Source of the DNA: Collinsella tanakaei
Lineage (GTDB): Bacteria; Actinomycetota; Coriobacteriia; Coriobacteriales; Coriobacteriaceae
Length of the DNA stretch: 64,000 bases
Direction of reading: 5' to 3'
Assembly (NCBI RefSeq): GCF_030373545.1
Contig: NZ_JAUDCO010000005.1
Location: 62,001 to 126,000, forward strand
Both the position numbers and the translations under genes were made by a program. Position 1 is the stretch's first letter. Every line of letters starts with the position of its first letter. Below are positions 9,993-14,527 of the stretch, piece by piece. Below the pieces are notes generated by a model. That model saw nothing but the letters and a program-made list of their open reading frames with translations, was not told the origin of the DNA and searched no databases.

Positions 9993-10787
9993 ATGGAGAT
10001 GCTCGCCAAAACGGTGCGACGCCTGGTGCTCGTGGTGCTCGTGGCGGTGCTGCTGCTCGTTGCCGCGACCGTGTGGCGCGGGTACGGGATGTATCGCGAC
10101 GCGCTCGACCGCATGTCGATTTCCGAGGCGGTTGCGCAGCTGAAGCGCCAGCCGGGTTACACAACCGTCGACGAGCTGCCGCAGCGCTACCTCGATGCCG
10201 TCGTGGCCGTCGAGGACCATCGCTTTTACGGGCATGCGGGCATTGATCCTATCGGCATCTGCCGCGCGGCCGTCAACGACCTGCGTTCCTTGAGTTTGGA
10301 GGAGGGCGGCAGCACCATCACGCAGCAGGTCGCCAAGAATCTGTTCTTTACCGGCGAGAAGCGCTTCTCGCGCAAGGTCGCCGAAGCGTTCATGGCGTTT
10401 GACCTGGAGAGCCGATATGACAAGCGCGAGATTCTCGAGCTGTACGTGAACTCGTCGTATTTCGGTCTGGGCCATACGGGCATCGGGCTGGCGGCGCCTG
10501 CTTACTTGGGTTGCTCGCCAAGCGAGATGGATGATTTCTCGTGCGTCCTGATGGCGGGAATCCCCAACGCCCCCGAGTCGCTCGCGTCGGATTGGCAGGC
10601 CGCCATCGACCGCGCATACGTGGTGATCGGGCAGATGGAGAAGTATGGCTACGACCCCGGTGATGCGGTCCTTGGCGAAGGCGACGGTGCGCCGGCGGGC
10701 ACCGATGCCGATCTAGATCCGTCGCCCGCCTCATTGGTAGGCCGACAGGCGAGGAGGGGCCCTCGGATTCGTTCGTTTTTCCGTTGA
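9993..10787 (+). CDS. mtgA: Monofunctional GT51 peptidoglycan transglycosylase
   Basis: Polymerises lipid II into glycan strands at the outer face of the membrane. An N-terminal membrane anchor (residues 10-29) is followed by the GT51 domain with the catalytic motif EDHRFYGHAGID, then EGGSTITQQVAKNLFF, the conserved helix KVAEAFMAFDLE, KREILELYVNSSYFG and AGIPNAPESL. No transpeptidase domain follows; the protein is 264 residues, as for monofunctional enzymes. AGGAGG precedes the ATG by six bases. The basic C-terminus (ARRGPRIRSFFR) is unusual. The next gene is a Mur-ligase-family enzyme, which supports a wall-related neighbourhood. Confidence 0.88.
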   Translation: MEMLAKTVRRLVLVVLVAVLLLVAATVWRGYGMYRDALDRMSISEAVAQLKRQPGYTTVDELPQRYLDAVVAVEDHRFYGHAGIDPIGICRAAVNDLRSLSLEEGGSTITQQVAKNLFFTGEKRFSRKVAEAFMAFDLESRYDKREILELYVNSSYFGLGHTGIGLAAPAYLGCSPSEMDDFSCVLMAGIPNAPESLASDWQAAIDRAYVVIGQMEKYGYDPGDAVLGEGDGAPAGTDADLDPSPASLVGRQARRGPRIRSFFR

Positions 10788-11258
10788 TGGTCACGAGGGA
10801 ACGATAATTGTCGTATTGGCCTATTATTTGACCCCCTTATGAGTCTGAGAGAAACGATCTGGAGGGCATGGTGAGCGTGACGGTGTCCATCCGCTGGTGT
10901 TTCCGCAGGATTGGTTCGCGGCGGGCGGCCGTGAGCCGCCCTTCGGGCAGCTGCGGGTCGCCTTTAGGGGTGGCCATGCTTCAGTAATCGTTGTCTCGTG
11001 ACCACGATGAGGATTACGAGCGCGCGAGGCGGGCGGGAATGGCCGACGGCTCCCGATCGGAGGTCGGTATTTTGCCGCGGTTTCAGCGGTTTCTTGCCTG
11101 TACGGGCAAAAGGGTTGCTGCGGCGGGTTCCGGCATGGCGGGCGATCGTCATGGGCTCCTGCGGCAGGTCCGGGCGGTTCTCGAGCTTCCGATTGTGGGG
11201 AGCACTTGAGCAGAGGGTGAAGGGATTCTGAGGATGCACTCCAAATCCATGCCTGCCG
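10788..11258. other. Intergenic region, no confident gene
   Basis: A stretch of about 470 bases between the transglycosylase and MurT genes. It contains one short frame of 38 codons starting at 10868 after GGAGGG (Met-Val-Ser-Val-Thr...), Arg/Ser-rich and without any recognised family, which I do not call. Several GC-rich partial inverted repeats lie near 10918-10970. No riboswitch consensus was recognised. Confidence 0.4.
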
Positions 11259-11264
11259 TATAAT
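11259..11264 (+). promoter_or_regulatory. -10 box TATAAT before the MurT-GatD fusion
   Basis: A perfect TATAAT lies 58 bases before the TTG start at 11322. The -35 region is not recognisable. The leader contains a small GCCAGCCTGGCTGGC hairpin at about 11283-11297. Confidence 0.5.
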
Positions 11265-11321
11265 GGTCAGCTGCACCGTTTTGCCAGCCTGGCTGGCTGT
11301 TCGTACGTAAAGGAGCCAACC

Positions 11322-13547
11322 TTGAGCACTGCCGTTCAGGGCCGTCGCGGACCTCGCTTCCATCTGGCCATGGCTGCCGCCAAGGCCGCCGTGGCGGGAC
11401 TCAAGCTGCTGCGCCGCAACGCTGGTCAGATGCCCGGCGTCATCGCCGAGAAGTTCGACCCGGCGTTCCTCGACCATATCGACAAGCCTGCCCATATCGT
11501 GTTCGTCTCGGGCACCAACGGTAAGACCACGACGAACAACCTGTTGAACGACCTGCTTGCCGACAACGGTATCGATCTGATCGATAACCGCGCAGGCGGC
11601 AACATCAGGACCGGCATCGAGAGCACGTTCGTCAAAAACGCGACGCTTTCGGGCCGTCAGCGCAAGGACACCGCGGTCATGGAGCTTGACGAGCTGTCGT
11701 TCCGCCGCGTGCTGCCCGACGTCACGCCCGAGATCATCCTGGTTACCAATCTGTACCGCGATTCGTTTGCGCGCAACGCCAACCCCGAGTTCATCTTCTC
11801 GGTCATGAGCGAGCACATCTCGCCCAAGACCAAGCTCATCCTCAACGCTGATGACCTCATCAGCTGCCGCTTGGCGCCGCAGAACACCAACCGCGTGTAT
11901 TTCTCGCTCGGCCCGCTGGCCGAGGACACCCCTGACCCGCAGGGCATCGTATGCGACCTCACCGCCTGTCCCGAGTGCGGCGGCAAGCTGGAGTACGACT
12001 ATTGCCACCTGCGCCATCTTGGCCATGCGCACTGCACTTCGTGCGGATTCACCAACCCTGACCCCGCCTACGAGGTCATCGCCGTCGACCGCGACGCGCA
12101 TACGTTCACGGTGCGCGAGAACGCGGCGGACGGGCTTCCCGAGTACACCTACCGCTTCGGCGTGTATTCCCTCACCAACCTGTACAACCTGTTCGCCGCG
12201 ACCGTCGTGGCACGCGAGATGGGCCTTGCGCCCGCCGCGATCGCCGCGTCGCTCGAGCGCGGCATCAACGTGACCGCCGCGCGCTACGCTGAGCAGGAAG
12301 TGGGAGGCAAGCGTCTGGTGGCGCTTGCATCCAAGGGCGAGAACAGCACGGCGACTTCGGTGGCGCTTGACACCATCCGACGCGAGCCGGGCGACAAGAT
12401 CGTCATCCTTATGCTCGCCGACGCGCACAAGGCCGAGAGCCCCACAACGACCGAGTACATCGGTTGGTACTACCAGTCCGACTTCGAGTACCTGACCGAT
12501 CCGGCCATCAAGCAGGTGATCGTGCAGGGTGTGACCAACGAGGACCTGCTGCTGCGCCTGAGCCTGGCCGGCATCGATCCCACCAAGCTCTACATGGTCA
12601 CGACGCCCGACGAGGCGGCCGACGCCGTCGACCTGTCGTGCGGCGTCGACAACATCTTCTGGGCCTACGACATCTTCAACGGCGCCGATGTCGACAAGAG
12701 CCGCAGCCGACTCATCCACCGCATCGAGGCGGGGGAGCAGGGCGGCCCGGCCTCGCCGTCGGTGGCCGAGTCCGATGGCGGCGCATCCTCGCGTCCGACA
12801 TCGTCGGCTGCCCCGGTCATCGAGGTGCTGTTCCCGGAGTACGGCAACCAGGCGGGCGACAACGGCAACGTCATGTACCTGCGCGCCTGCCTGCCCGATG
12901 CGACGTTTATCGAGACCTCCCACGGCGACGTGCCCTATTTTGCCGAGCACCGCCCCGACCTCATCGTCATGTGCGGCATGACCGAAGGCCAGCAGGTCAC
13001 GGCGATCGAGCAGCTCAAGCCCTATCGCGACCGCCTGGCCGAGCTCGTCGACGACGGCGTGTTCATGCTGTTCACCGGCAACGCTCCCGAGACGCTTTGC
13101 CGCCGCATTACCGATGCGCGCGGCGAGCGCATCGAGGGCCTGGGCATCATCGACGCCGAGGTGGCCCGCGATACCGCTACGCGCTACCTGTGCGTGCAGT
13201 CCGGTTCGTTCGTACCCGCTCCGGGTGCCGAGCCCCTGGACGTCGTGGGCTTTAAGATTCAGTTCACCCAGGTCGCCGGCGACAACGCAGGGCGCTTCTT
13301 TATCGAGGACCGCGCCGGCTGGGGCCTTGATGAGCGCAGCAAGCTCGAGGGCTTCCGCATCAACAACCTGTTTGCCACCTGGATCATCGGTCCTCTGCTC
13401 CCGCTCAACCCCGATTTCACCTCGTGGTTGCTCAAAAACGTGACGGGAGGGGGTTCGGTGCATTTGGCATACGAGCCGCAAGCCCGAGCTGCCTTCGTCA
13501 AGCGCCTGCACGAGTTCAAGGCGCCGGGGATGCACCTGGCCTACTAG
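11322..13547 (+). CDS. MurT-GatD-like fusion with degenerate glutaminase site
   Basis: The N-terminal ~470 residues are MurT-like Mur ligase: P-loop GTNGKTTT (residues 64-71), Mur central domain, a zinc ribbon (C216-x2-C219, C238-x2-C241) and the DUF1727-type C-terminal domain. A linker rich in Ser/Ala joins it to a GatD-like amidotransferase domain (from ~496; GDNGNVMYLR, then GERIEGLGIIDAEV). MurT-GatD normally amidates D-Glu of lipid II using glutamine. Here the GatD cysteine position (ICGGYQ in S. aureus) reads FTGNAP, T585, and the His position (TYLHGP) reads TWIIGP, I689. The MurT segment normally WxWDxDFE reads WYYQSDFE, Q385. Glutaminase activity is therefore unlikely; the ATP-dependent ligase core looks intact. 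Start is TTG at 11322 after AAAGGAG. Length 741. Confidence 0.85.
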   Translation: MSTAVQGRRGPRFHLAMAAAKAAVAGLKLLRRNAGQMPGVIAEKFDPAFLDHIDKPAHIVFVSGTNGKTTTNNLLNDLLADNGIDLIDNRAGGNIRTGIESTFVKNATLSGRQRKDTAVMELDELSFRRVLPDVTPEIILVTNLYRDSFARNANPEFIFSVMSEHISPKTKLILNADDLISCRLAPQNTNRVYFSLGPLAEDTPDPQGIVCDLTACPECGGKLEYDYCHLRHLGHAHCTSCGFTNPDPAYEVIAVDRDAHTFTVRENAADGLPEYTYRFGVYSLTNLYNLFAATVVAREMGLAPAAIAASLERGINVTAARYAEQEVGGKRLVALASKGENSTATSVALDTIRREPGDKIVILMLADAHKAESPTTTEYIGWYYQSDFEYLTDPAIKQVIVQGVTNEDLLLRLSLAGIDPTKLYMVTTPDEAADAVDLSCGVDNIFWAYDIFNGADVDKSRSRLIHRIEAGEQGGPASPSVAESDGGASSRPTSSAAPVIEVLFPEYGNQAGDNGNVMYLRACLPDATFIETSHGDVPYFAEHRPDLIVMCGMTEGQQVTAIEQLKPYRDRLAELVDDGVFMLFTGNAPETLCRRITDARGERIEGLGIIDAEVARDTATRYLCVQSGSFVPAPGAEPLDVVGFKIQFTQVAGDNAGRFFIEDRAGWGLDERSKLEGFRINNLFATWIIGPLLPLNPDFTSWLLKNVTGGGSVHLAYEPQARAAFVKRLHEFKAPGMHLAY

Positions 13548-13831: not shown

Positions 13832-14527
13832 ATGGAATTCAACATGAATGAGGGGCACCCCATCGAGGTCGAGGTCGGCGGCAAGCGCTACGCGCGTCAC
13901 GCCATCCGCACGCGGTTCGTCGAGATCGGGGAGAGCTATCTCGATCTGATCCGCGAGTACGTACTGCCCGTCTGGCAGCCCGGCGACATCCTGTCCTCGA
14001 GCGAGAAGGTCGTGGCGCTTTGCCAGGGGCGTGTGGTGTACGAGAAGGATGTCGAGCCGGGCCTGCTCGCGCGCTTTCTGGCGCCGTTTGCCAGCGGCAC
14101 GCCCGACGCGTTCGGCGTGAAGCATCCCGCCAAGATGCAGTTCGCGATCAACGAATGCGGTGCCCCGCGCGTGCTGTGGGCAGCTATCTGTGCCGGCGTG
14201 GCCAAGCTCTTCGGAAAGCACGGCGTCTTCTACGAGATGACGGGCCGCGAGGTCGCCGGTCTCGACGGCTTCTACGGAGCGGAGTTCGACACGTATGCCC
14301 ACATGGGCGTGCGCATCCCGGCGGATCCCGACGGCGTTTGCGATGAGGTGGAGCGCGAGCTCGGCGTGCAGATGATGATCGTGGATGCCAACAACATCAA
14401 CGTCGAGATCCTCGGCCGCAGTTCGTCGCTTGCGCTGACCGACGACGACCTGCGCGCCCTGATCGCCGACAATCCGGCGGGGCAGGGCACCGAGCTCACG
14501 CCGTTCATCCTCATCCGCCCGCTGTAG
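13832..14527 (+). CDS. CofE-like (coenzyme F420-0:L-glutamate ligase family) protein
   Basis: A 231-residue member of the F420-0:gamma-glutamyl ligase family (PF01996). True CofE adds L-glutamate to F420-0 with GTP. Family-type segments include the N-terminal ILSSSEKVVALCQGR, a central FAINECGAPRVLWAA, a DTYAHMGVRIPADPDG region and a C-terminal acidic MMIVDANNINVEILGRSS. No other F420 biosynthesis genes (cofC, cofD, cofG/H) lie in the window, so an F420 role is doubtful. Its position after a Mur-ligase fusion with a dead glutaminase suggests a role in attaching an amino acid to a wall precursor; that is inference. AAAGGAG lies six bases before the ATG. A terminator follows. Confidence 0.7.
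   Translation: MEFNMNEGHPIEVEVGGKRYARHAIRTRFVEIGESYLDLIREYVLPVWQPGDILSSSEKVVALCQGRVVYEKDVEPGLLARFLAPFASGTPDAFGVKHPAKMQFAINECGAPRVLWAAICAGVAKLFGKHGVFYEMTGREVAGLDGFYGAEFDTYAHMGVRIPADPDGVCDEVERELGVQMMIVDANNINVEILGRSSSLALTDDDLRALIADNPAGQGTELTPFILIRPL

Follow-up and report, generated by a model that had tools for sequence, protein, structure and literature searches.

A MurT-GatD fusion in Collinsella tanakaei with a glutaminase-dead GatD half belongs to a clade of such pairs and suggests an amine donor other than glutamine

The GatD half of a MurT-GatD fusion encoded by Collinsella tanakaei lacks the residues of a glutaminase, and the aligned sequences indicate that the protein belongs to an old clade of similarly dead pairs. 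We think it probable, with considerable room for doubt, that the fusion is a glutamine-independent ligase of the MurT type, which joins a free amine to a carboxyl of a peptidoglycan precursor. The gene lies in what we call the window, i.e. the whole stretch of 64,000 nucleotides that was analysed (contig NZ_JAUDCO010000005.1, positions 62,001 to 126,000 of the forward strand). The features discussed below are as follows, in window coordinates.

9993-10787, + strand: monofunctional transglycosylase gene (PF00912), just upstream of the fusion
11309..11315, + strand: AAAGGAG, likely ribosome-binding site, 6 bases 5' of the TTG (by eye)
11322..13547, + strand: murT-gatD fusion with glutaminase-dead GatD domain; TTG start, 741 aa plus stop
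11322..12731, + strand: MurT ligase domain, residues 1-470 (VIA-align to 6gs2_B and 9sqj_BBB)
11511..11534, + strand: P-loop GTNGKTTT, residues 64-71; few substitutions among aligned relatives
11841..11855, + strand: LNADD, residues 174-178, counterpart of the DNADD acceptor motif of S. aureus MurT
11967..12044, + strand: zinc ribbon with four Cys, residues 216, 219, 238 and 241 (alignments)
12474..12476, + strand: Q385 at the position of the canonical MurT triad Asp (alignments)
12813..13544, + strand: GatD-like domain, residues ~498-741 (VIA-align to 5n9m_B)
12852..12854, + strand: A511 at the position of the canonical GatD channel-plug Tyr (column check)
13074..13082, + strand: T585-G586-N587, G586 being the catalytic Cys position (column check, hhalign)
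13254..13265, + strand: K645-I-Q647-F648 in place of canonical E-N-H-x (in the clade K 86%, Q 78%, F 98%)
13386..13388, + strand: I689 at the catalytic His position (alignments)
13832..14527, + strand: CofE-like protein, possible partner (PF01996, 25.4 bits, cut-off 25)

The first-pass annotation, made from the letters of the window, had read the plus-strand frame at 11322-13547 as a MurT-GatD fusion, and the open reading frame, Pfam, phmmer and the fold comparison all agree with it. Pfam finds Mur_ligase_M (29.5 bits) and MurT_C (43.9 bits) in the protein, with GATase_3 at 23.7 bits, below its cut-off of 27; phmmer matches S. aureus MurT with E 7e-53 and GatD with 2e-8. Modelling of the fold, a check proposed by the annotation, gave a confident AlphaFold2 model (mean pLDDT 93.9, pTM 0.92) in which VIA-align recognises both folds: the MurT domain aligns with 6gs2_B (Z 28.1, rmsd 8.3, 380 aligned) and 9sqj_BBB (Z 28.0, rmsd 3.6, 394 aligned), and the GatD-like domain with 5n9m_B (Z 24.7, rmsd 2.5, 230 aligned). 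The P-loop and all four zinc-ribbon cysteines are in place in the alignments, as had been stated. LNADD is invariant in 14/14 rows of one alignment of relatives, and the available text of PMC6113224 describes the acceptor-motif role of DNADD in S. aureus MurT. A 903-aa antisense frame (window 10824-13535, minus strand) spans the whole fusion gene and was read as a high-GC by-product, not as a gene.

We compared the protein with the S. aureus isoglutaminyl synthase MurT/GatD (6gs2, 6h5e, 7q8e and 5n9m). The P-loop, the zinc ribbon, MurT_C, the GatD fold and the LNADD counterpart are common to both, whereas Cys94 and His189 of GatD and Asp349 of MurT are all replaced in the window protein, the region ENHGGRT of canonical GatD reads KIQFTQ, and the two S. 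aureus proteins are fused into one. The proposals that the His of TYLHGP became I689 and the Asp of W-x-x-D-x-D-F-E became Q385 hold in the alignments. The nucleophile, which had been placed at T585, is one residue off: a profile-profile comparison of 38 dead and 24 canonical GatD rows by hhalign (E 8e-30, gapless there) puts the canonical Cys on Gly586, and a gapless column check aligns Thr585 with the Ile/Val preceding that Cys. This correction matters because Cys to Gly is the exact change in the characterised S. aureus C94G mutant. The channel-plug Tyr replaced by A511 is described for S. pneumoniae in the available text of PMC6085368; the Asp of GDxGN is retained in the GatD domain as D513. 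Residue losses and retained ligase motifs together support the earlier picture of a fusion whose glutaminase is dead and whose ligase core is intact. The NCBIfam equivalog scores of the fusion (200.1, 149.8, 37.5 and 24.8 bits) are all below the cut-offs (800, 800, 450 and 400). The window protein is thus related to the isoglutaminyl synthases without being one of them: it has the fold and the ligase features, but all three triad residues are absent and its scores stay under the NCBIfam cut-offs.

The annotation had implied that these losses are unique to the window protein, but they are conserved clade-wide. We followed its proposal to align homologues, and the losses of Cys and His proved to be shared across the dead clade. 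The Cys column of 99 clade GatD rows holds G in 81, H in 11, N in 2, C in 2 and a gap in 3, so that Cys is absent from 94/96 ungapped rows, and His is absent from 95/95. The two rows with Cys are L120, a broken fragment, and L153, a second copy in a Fastidiosipila MAG. Both residues are kept in 34/34 canonical loci checked. Such conservation over the whole clade puts the losses in the window beyond chance. A His stands at the Cys position (LFTHSA or LFTHSG) in the fusions L108-L113, L115, L116, L119 and L121, several of them from Atopobiaceae.

Glutamine might still be hydrolysed, by way of a relocated nucleophile or of another glutaminase, and we consider this very unlikely. The two Cys-bearing rows, one of them broken, speak for it; the G, H or N in 94/96 rows of the Cys column and a His column that never shows His speak against it. 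A search with the whole protein gave one match in the window genome (99.96% complete), and this counts against another glutaminase. The genome also has one MurT_C match. The GATase_3 search of that genome listed HisH only; since it was too insensitive to list the window's own GatD domain, it says little against a further divergent GatD.

The dead pairs are spread over a wide range of genomes. Our genome-contig scan found 174 relatives, from which 79 loci were kept. They come from Coriobacteriales and Clostridia (with Oscillospiraceae, Lachnospiraceae and Sporobacter termitidis among the latter) and, outside these, from one Erysipelotrichaceae and one Bacilli MAG. One locus that is near-identical to the window's, L103, is from an uncultured Collinsella MAG. 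We also sampled 243 genomes of the class to which Sporobacter termitidis belongs (taken as Clostridia); a GatD-type match is present in 127 of them, giving 131 loci that were all read. Of these loci, 87 have both residues and 34 have neither; Cys alone is missing in 6 and His alone in 3, and the remaining one, cut at a contig end, has its Cys.

In the window's genus, 36 genomes have a MurT_C match (one further genome has none) and each carries exactly one. The match is canonical-like in 22 (E about 1e-28) and divergent in 14, including the window's (E 1e-12 to 1e-16). The lack of a second MurT_C in these 36 genomes indicates that the divergent enzyme stands in the place of the canonical one there. 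The dead pair is likewise the sole MurT_C match in 28/31 genomes counted, i.e. the window genome and 27/30 Clostridia. The canonical pairs of the genus (L098-L101) and many of those in other Coriobacteriales (L003-L032, L102) are fused too, and are about 30% identical to the window protein; none of the window's neighbour genes is found around L098-L102. We observed tandem dead MurT-GatD pairs at L126 (3944-8670, G365) and L127 (3983-10120, G164), from Collinsella vaginalis and C. massiliensis, one pair having Gln and the other Glu at the MurT Asp. Some Collinsella have a reversed order of split genes, gatD-like and then murT-like (L122, L123, L125 and L130; also L082-L084, L091 and L092); elsewhere murT precedes gatD or both are fused.

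We built a MurT-domain tree of 206 rows with the Asp columns omitted; it is a quick tree with no mixture model and no inferred root. The window protein falls within a dead clade of 98 (support 98, unrooted). One branch sets the canonical rows apart from this clade and from two more dead clades, of 11 and 6. The fewest state changes on this tree are five, and midpoint rooting of this quick tree makes the dead clades basal. The MurT Asp behaves differently from the GatD residues. It is kept as D in 62/67 clade rows outside the main Coriobacteriales set (the others being E in 3, N in 1 and A in 1), whereas the main set itself (the window, L103-127, 130, 132 and 163; 31 rows) has Q in 27 and E in 4. 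Three further Coriobacteriales loci, L095-L097 of another family, have D. Since the whole clade is marked by the loss of Cys and His, and Asp is mostly kept outside the main set, the losses were stepwise, GatD Cys and His having gone before MurT Asp. The simultaneous change of three cooperating residues, from which the annotation had argued, does not fit these counts. Separate and seemingly younger losses of Cys and/or His were seen on the canonical Clostridia side (L205, L241, L206, L207, L262, L266, L264 and L230), with L205 and L241 retaining Cys and having Asp for His.

Could the dead domain be a decaying relic with no function? In L148 and L167 GatD is spread over two reading frames, and in L120 it is broken; these cases favour decay and count against a rebuilt, needed domain. 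Against it, dN/dS (Nei-Gojobori, 9 comparisons for each domain) is well under 1 in both, at 0.012-0.178 for MurT and 0.029-0.281 for the dead GatD, indicating purifying selection and no decay; the residues are conserved over two phyla, and the predicted fold is of high confidence. We give decay practically no credence. The dead GatD has acquired near-invariant residues of its own, namely E501, P538 and F540 (100%), F648 (98%), R728 (97%), T585 (94%), E590 (87%) and K645 (86%). The pattern in the alignment suggests that these make up a rebuilt site and not a relic, and that site might bind an amine.

An alternative hypothesis is an ammonia-dependent amidotransferase, in which D-isoglutamine is still made, free ammonia is used and GatD is a mere scaffold; this seems to us possible, if somewhat doubtful. 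There are parallels. In human CPS1 and other GATases, the Cys was lost, ammonia is used and the dead glutaminase domain is kept as a partner, although the synthetase of CPS1 is unrelated to the MurT-type ligase half. The S. aureus GatD C94G complex has the same Cys to Gly change and an intact ligase half, as in the window protein, but this mutant was made in the laboratory and still has the His and the MurT Asp. According to the available text of PMC3266927, C94G loses the use of glutamine and keeps NH3-dependent amidation of lipid II, seen at pH 8.5 and not with MurT alone; the complex with ammonia is inactive at pH 7.5. GatD C94S and MurT D349N abolish or severely reduce the glutamine-dependent activity (PMC6113224, available text). 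The window genome has arcA and a carbamate kinase, which could yield ammonia. A mere scaffold, however, leaves the new near-invariant residues of the dead domain and its ectB neighbours (see below) unexplained.

Carbamate kinase lies near the pair in many Coriobacteriales and was considered as a local ammonia source. We rejected this, the adjacency being shared gene order: Collinsella with canonical MurT-GatD retain the kinase with no pair adjoining, so the adjacency is no evidence of function. A C39-like gene is near the kinase in four of these canonical Collinsella loci (L327, L328, L331 and L333), and the end of a PFOR-like gene in L327 and L333 (both inspected, by eye). The neighbouring ECF, glycosyltransferase, histidine kinase, response regulator and phosphodiesterase genes were read as vertical inheritance, since the window's family shares their conserved order with a second family. 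Five related loci (L063-L066 and L078) also have the PF00912 transglycosylase gene upstream of their pair.

A clue to the donor comes from ectB, the gene of EctB, which we take to be the diaminobutyrate (DAB) aminotransferase, maker of 2,4-diaminobutyrate. Ten genomes from two phyla have it directly next to the MurT-GatD pair and in the same orientation: it is downstream in five of the Clostridia (L131, L142, L158, L161 and L171; 5/51 loci) and upstream in five Coriobacteriales (L095, L096, L097, L342 and L079), where L342 (G454) has only its MurT part visible and L097 has GatD cut after the Cys region, with the His region missing. The TIGR02407 scores of L158 (588.7 bits), L171 (569.1), L142 (573.6) and L095 (556) are all above the cut-off of 552.2; L096 (548) and L079 (505.1) are under it and over that of NF006733 (438). 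The flanks read around the 87 canonical Clostridia loci, about 2-3 kb and in some cases shortened by a contig end, show no ectB beside the pair, and the 34 dead loci of the class sample likewise have none beside them. Most dead pairs in the scan also lack an adjoining ectB (46/51 Clostridia loci). ATP-grasp homologues occur beside ectB in L320, L345, L346 and L348.

EctB is also enriched at the level of genomes. A strong EctB (540 bits or more) is encoded in 12/31 scanned Clostridia genomes, which had been chosen by similarity to Coriobacterial queries, 9 of them over the cut-off, versus 5/243 genomes of the class sample. Three of the latter five (G748, G584 and G734) have a GatD lacking both residues, G559 is canonical and G644 has no GatD match; this is 3/33 dead-pair genomes vs 2/210 others (one-sided p 0.019, kinship ignored). 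Among 395 Coriobacteriales genomes only 8, from four genera, have EctB: 7/42 dead-pair genomes vs 1/353 others (one-sided Fisher p 7e-7, kinship ignored), the eighth, G341, being 75% complete with no pair seen. The 42 are the Coriobacteriales genomes strongly matching the window protein plus G454, and the GatD residues were read at least partly in 40 of them, the exceptions being G094, a fragment, and G454; weaker matches to the window protein (e.g. G076, G362, G364, G239, G249 and G270) were left unread.

In G734, which has a dead pair of another clade, murE is directly followed by ectB (L321:3675-6435; MurE TIGR01085 292.8 bits, cut-off 257.3), an order that ties ectB to the cell wall. By eye this MurE has no DNPR motif (EDPS is about there), which hints at a non-DAP diamino acid in the stem peptide. 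A search for EctC in 5 ectB genomes gave no match, but the control search was equally silent, so that the result says nothing about ectoine. The window genome (G000) has no EctB, its best match being 117 bits, so the DAB clue does not reach the window protein directly.

The acceptor might instead be outside peptidoglycan, with the pair being a MurT-derived biosynthetic or storage amide ligase that acts on a small molecule together with ATP-grasp and CofE-like ligases. Genes for ATP-grasp (PF14397) and CofE-like proteins do occur near some pairs: ATP-grasp homologues lie beside the dead pairs of L148, L149, L166, L167, L179, L180, L183 and L186, the PF14397 assignment having been tested in L167 and L179. 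The CofE-like protein of the window scores 15.8 bits with TIGR01916 vs a cut-off of 180.65; one further Collinsella (L064/L105) has an 87% identical counterpart of its gene, and in two Clostridia a homologue with 48-49% identity is located near the dead pair. In G559, with its canonical pair, ectB lies in a group of large open frames, the start of one of them resembling an acyltransferase (by eye). We judge this hypothesis unlikely, as LNADD and the zinc ribbon are kept, and as the dead pair is so often the only MurT_C of its genome, with no second copy in the genus.

We return to the glutamine-independent ligase, for which the following steps are proposed. The MurT half would still bind ATP and, most likely, a lipid-linked peptidoglycan precursor, since its LNADD and zinc-ribbon motifs are kept. 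It would turn a carboxyl into an acyl phosphate, the alpha-carboxyl of the stem-peptide D-Glu being the probable target. The GatD half, hydrolysing no glutamine, would stay as a structural partner with a rebuilt, conserved pocket and is probably needed for the reaction. Another amine would then attack the acyl phosphate, a free amino or diamino acid being our first choice and ammonia the second; the rebuilt site and the ectB link favour the former. The donor could be diaminobutyrate where ectB is linked, and in Collinsella perhaps ornithine, lysine, glycine or ammonia. The annotation's suggestion of a different amine donor is the leading idea, and the ectB neighbourhoods, the new conserved residues and the purifying selection point to it. 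A further observation counts against our explanation: S. aureus MurT-GatD at pH 7.5 took no tested donor but glutamine, according to the available text of PMC3266927.

We speculate further, and with rather little confidence, that the dead clade is a new class of wall ligases that add free amino or diamino acids (diaminobutyrate in ectB-linked genomes) to the D-Glu alpha-carboxyl, with the former glutaminase as the amine-binding partner, and that it could be the missing enzyme for such substituents or for group-B-type cross-bridges in gut Clostridia and Coriobacteriia. In group B peptidoglycan, diamino acids are placed on the D-Glu alpha-carboxyl. The ligase or ligases responsible act on the same carboxyl, and the ectB link would agree with a diamino acid as the donor; the part of the literature searched names no gene for them. 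Type B peptidoglycan and diaminobutyrate are both named in the available text of PMC11382707, which lists Atopobium, a relative, as A4alpha and so speaks against a group B wall in the order.

We found no description of a glutaminase-dead MurT-GatD clade in the titles and abstract openings that our literature search covered. A MurT/GatD phylogeny (PMC11915815) does not discuss the catalytic residues in its available part. The literature seen held no muropeptide data for hosts of dead pairs, with PMC6113628 and PMC4149003 giving, in their available parts, nothing usable on Collinsella muropeptides. MurT-GatD is a studied drug target, and amidation of D-Glu bears on cross-linking (PMC6113224, PMC3266927 and PMC6085368 among the sources, available parts). 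In this context it is of interest that 34/131 GatD-type loci in the class sample of 243 genomes are without both glutaminase residues. The glutaminase-dead half in the window and in many relatives suggests that the wall receives something other than glutamine's ammonia. If these pairs do load another amine, there would be an unrecognised wall modification in many gut bacteria, and a named gene would be available for testing who substitutes the D-Glu alpha-carboxyl.
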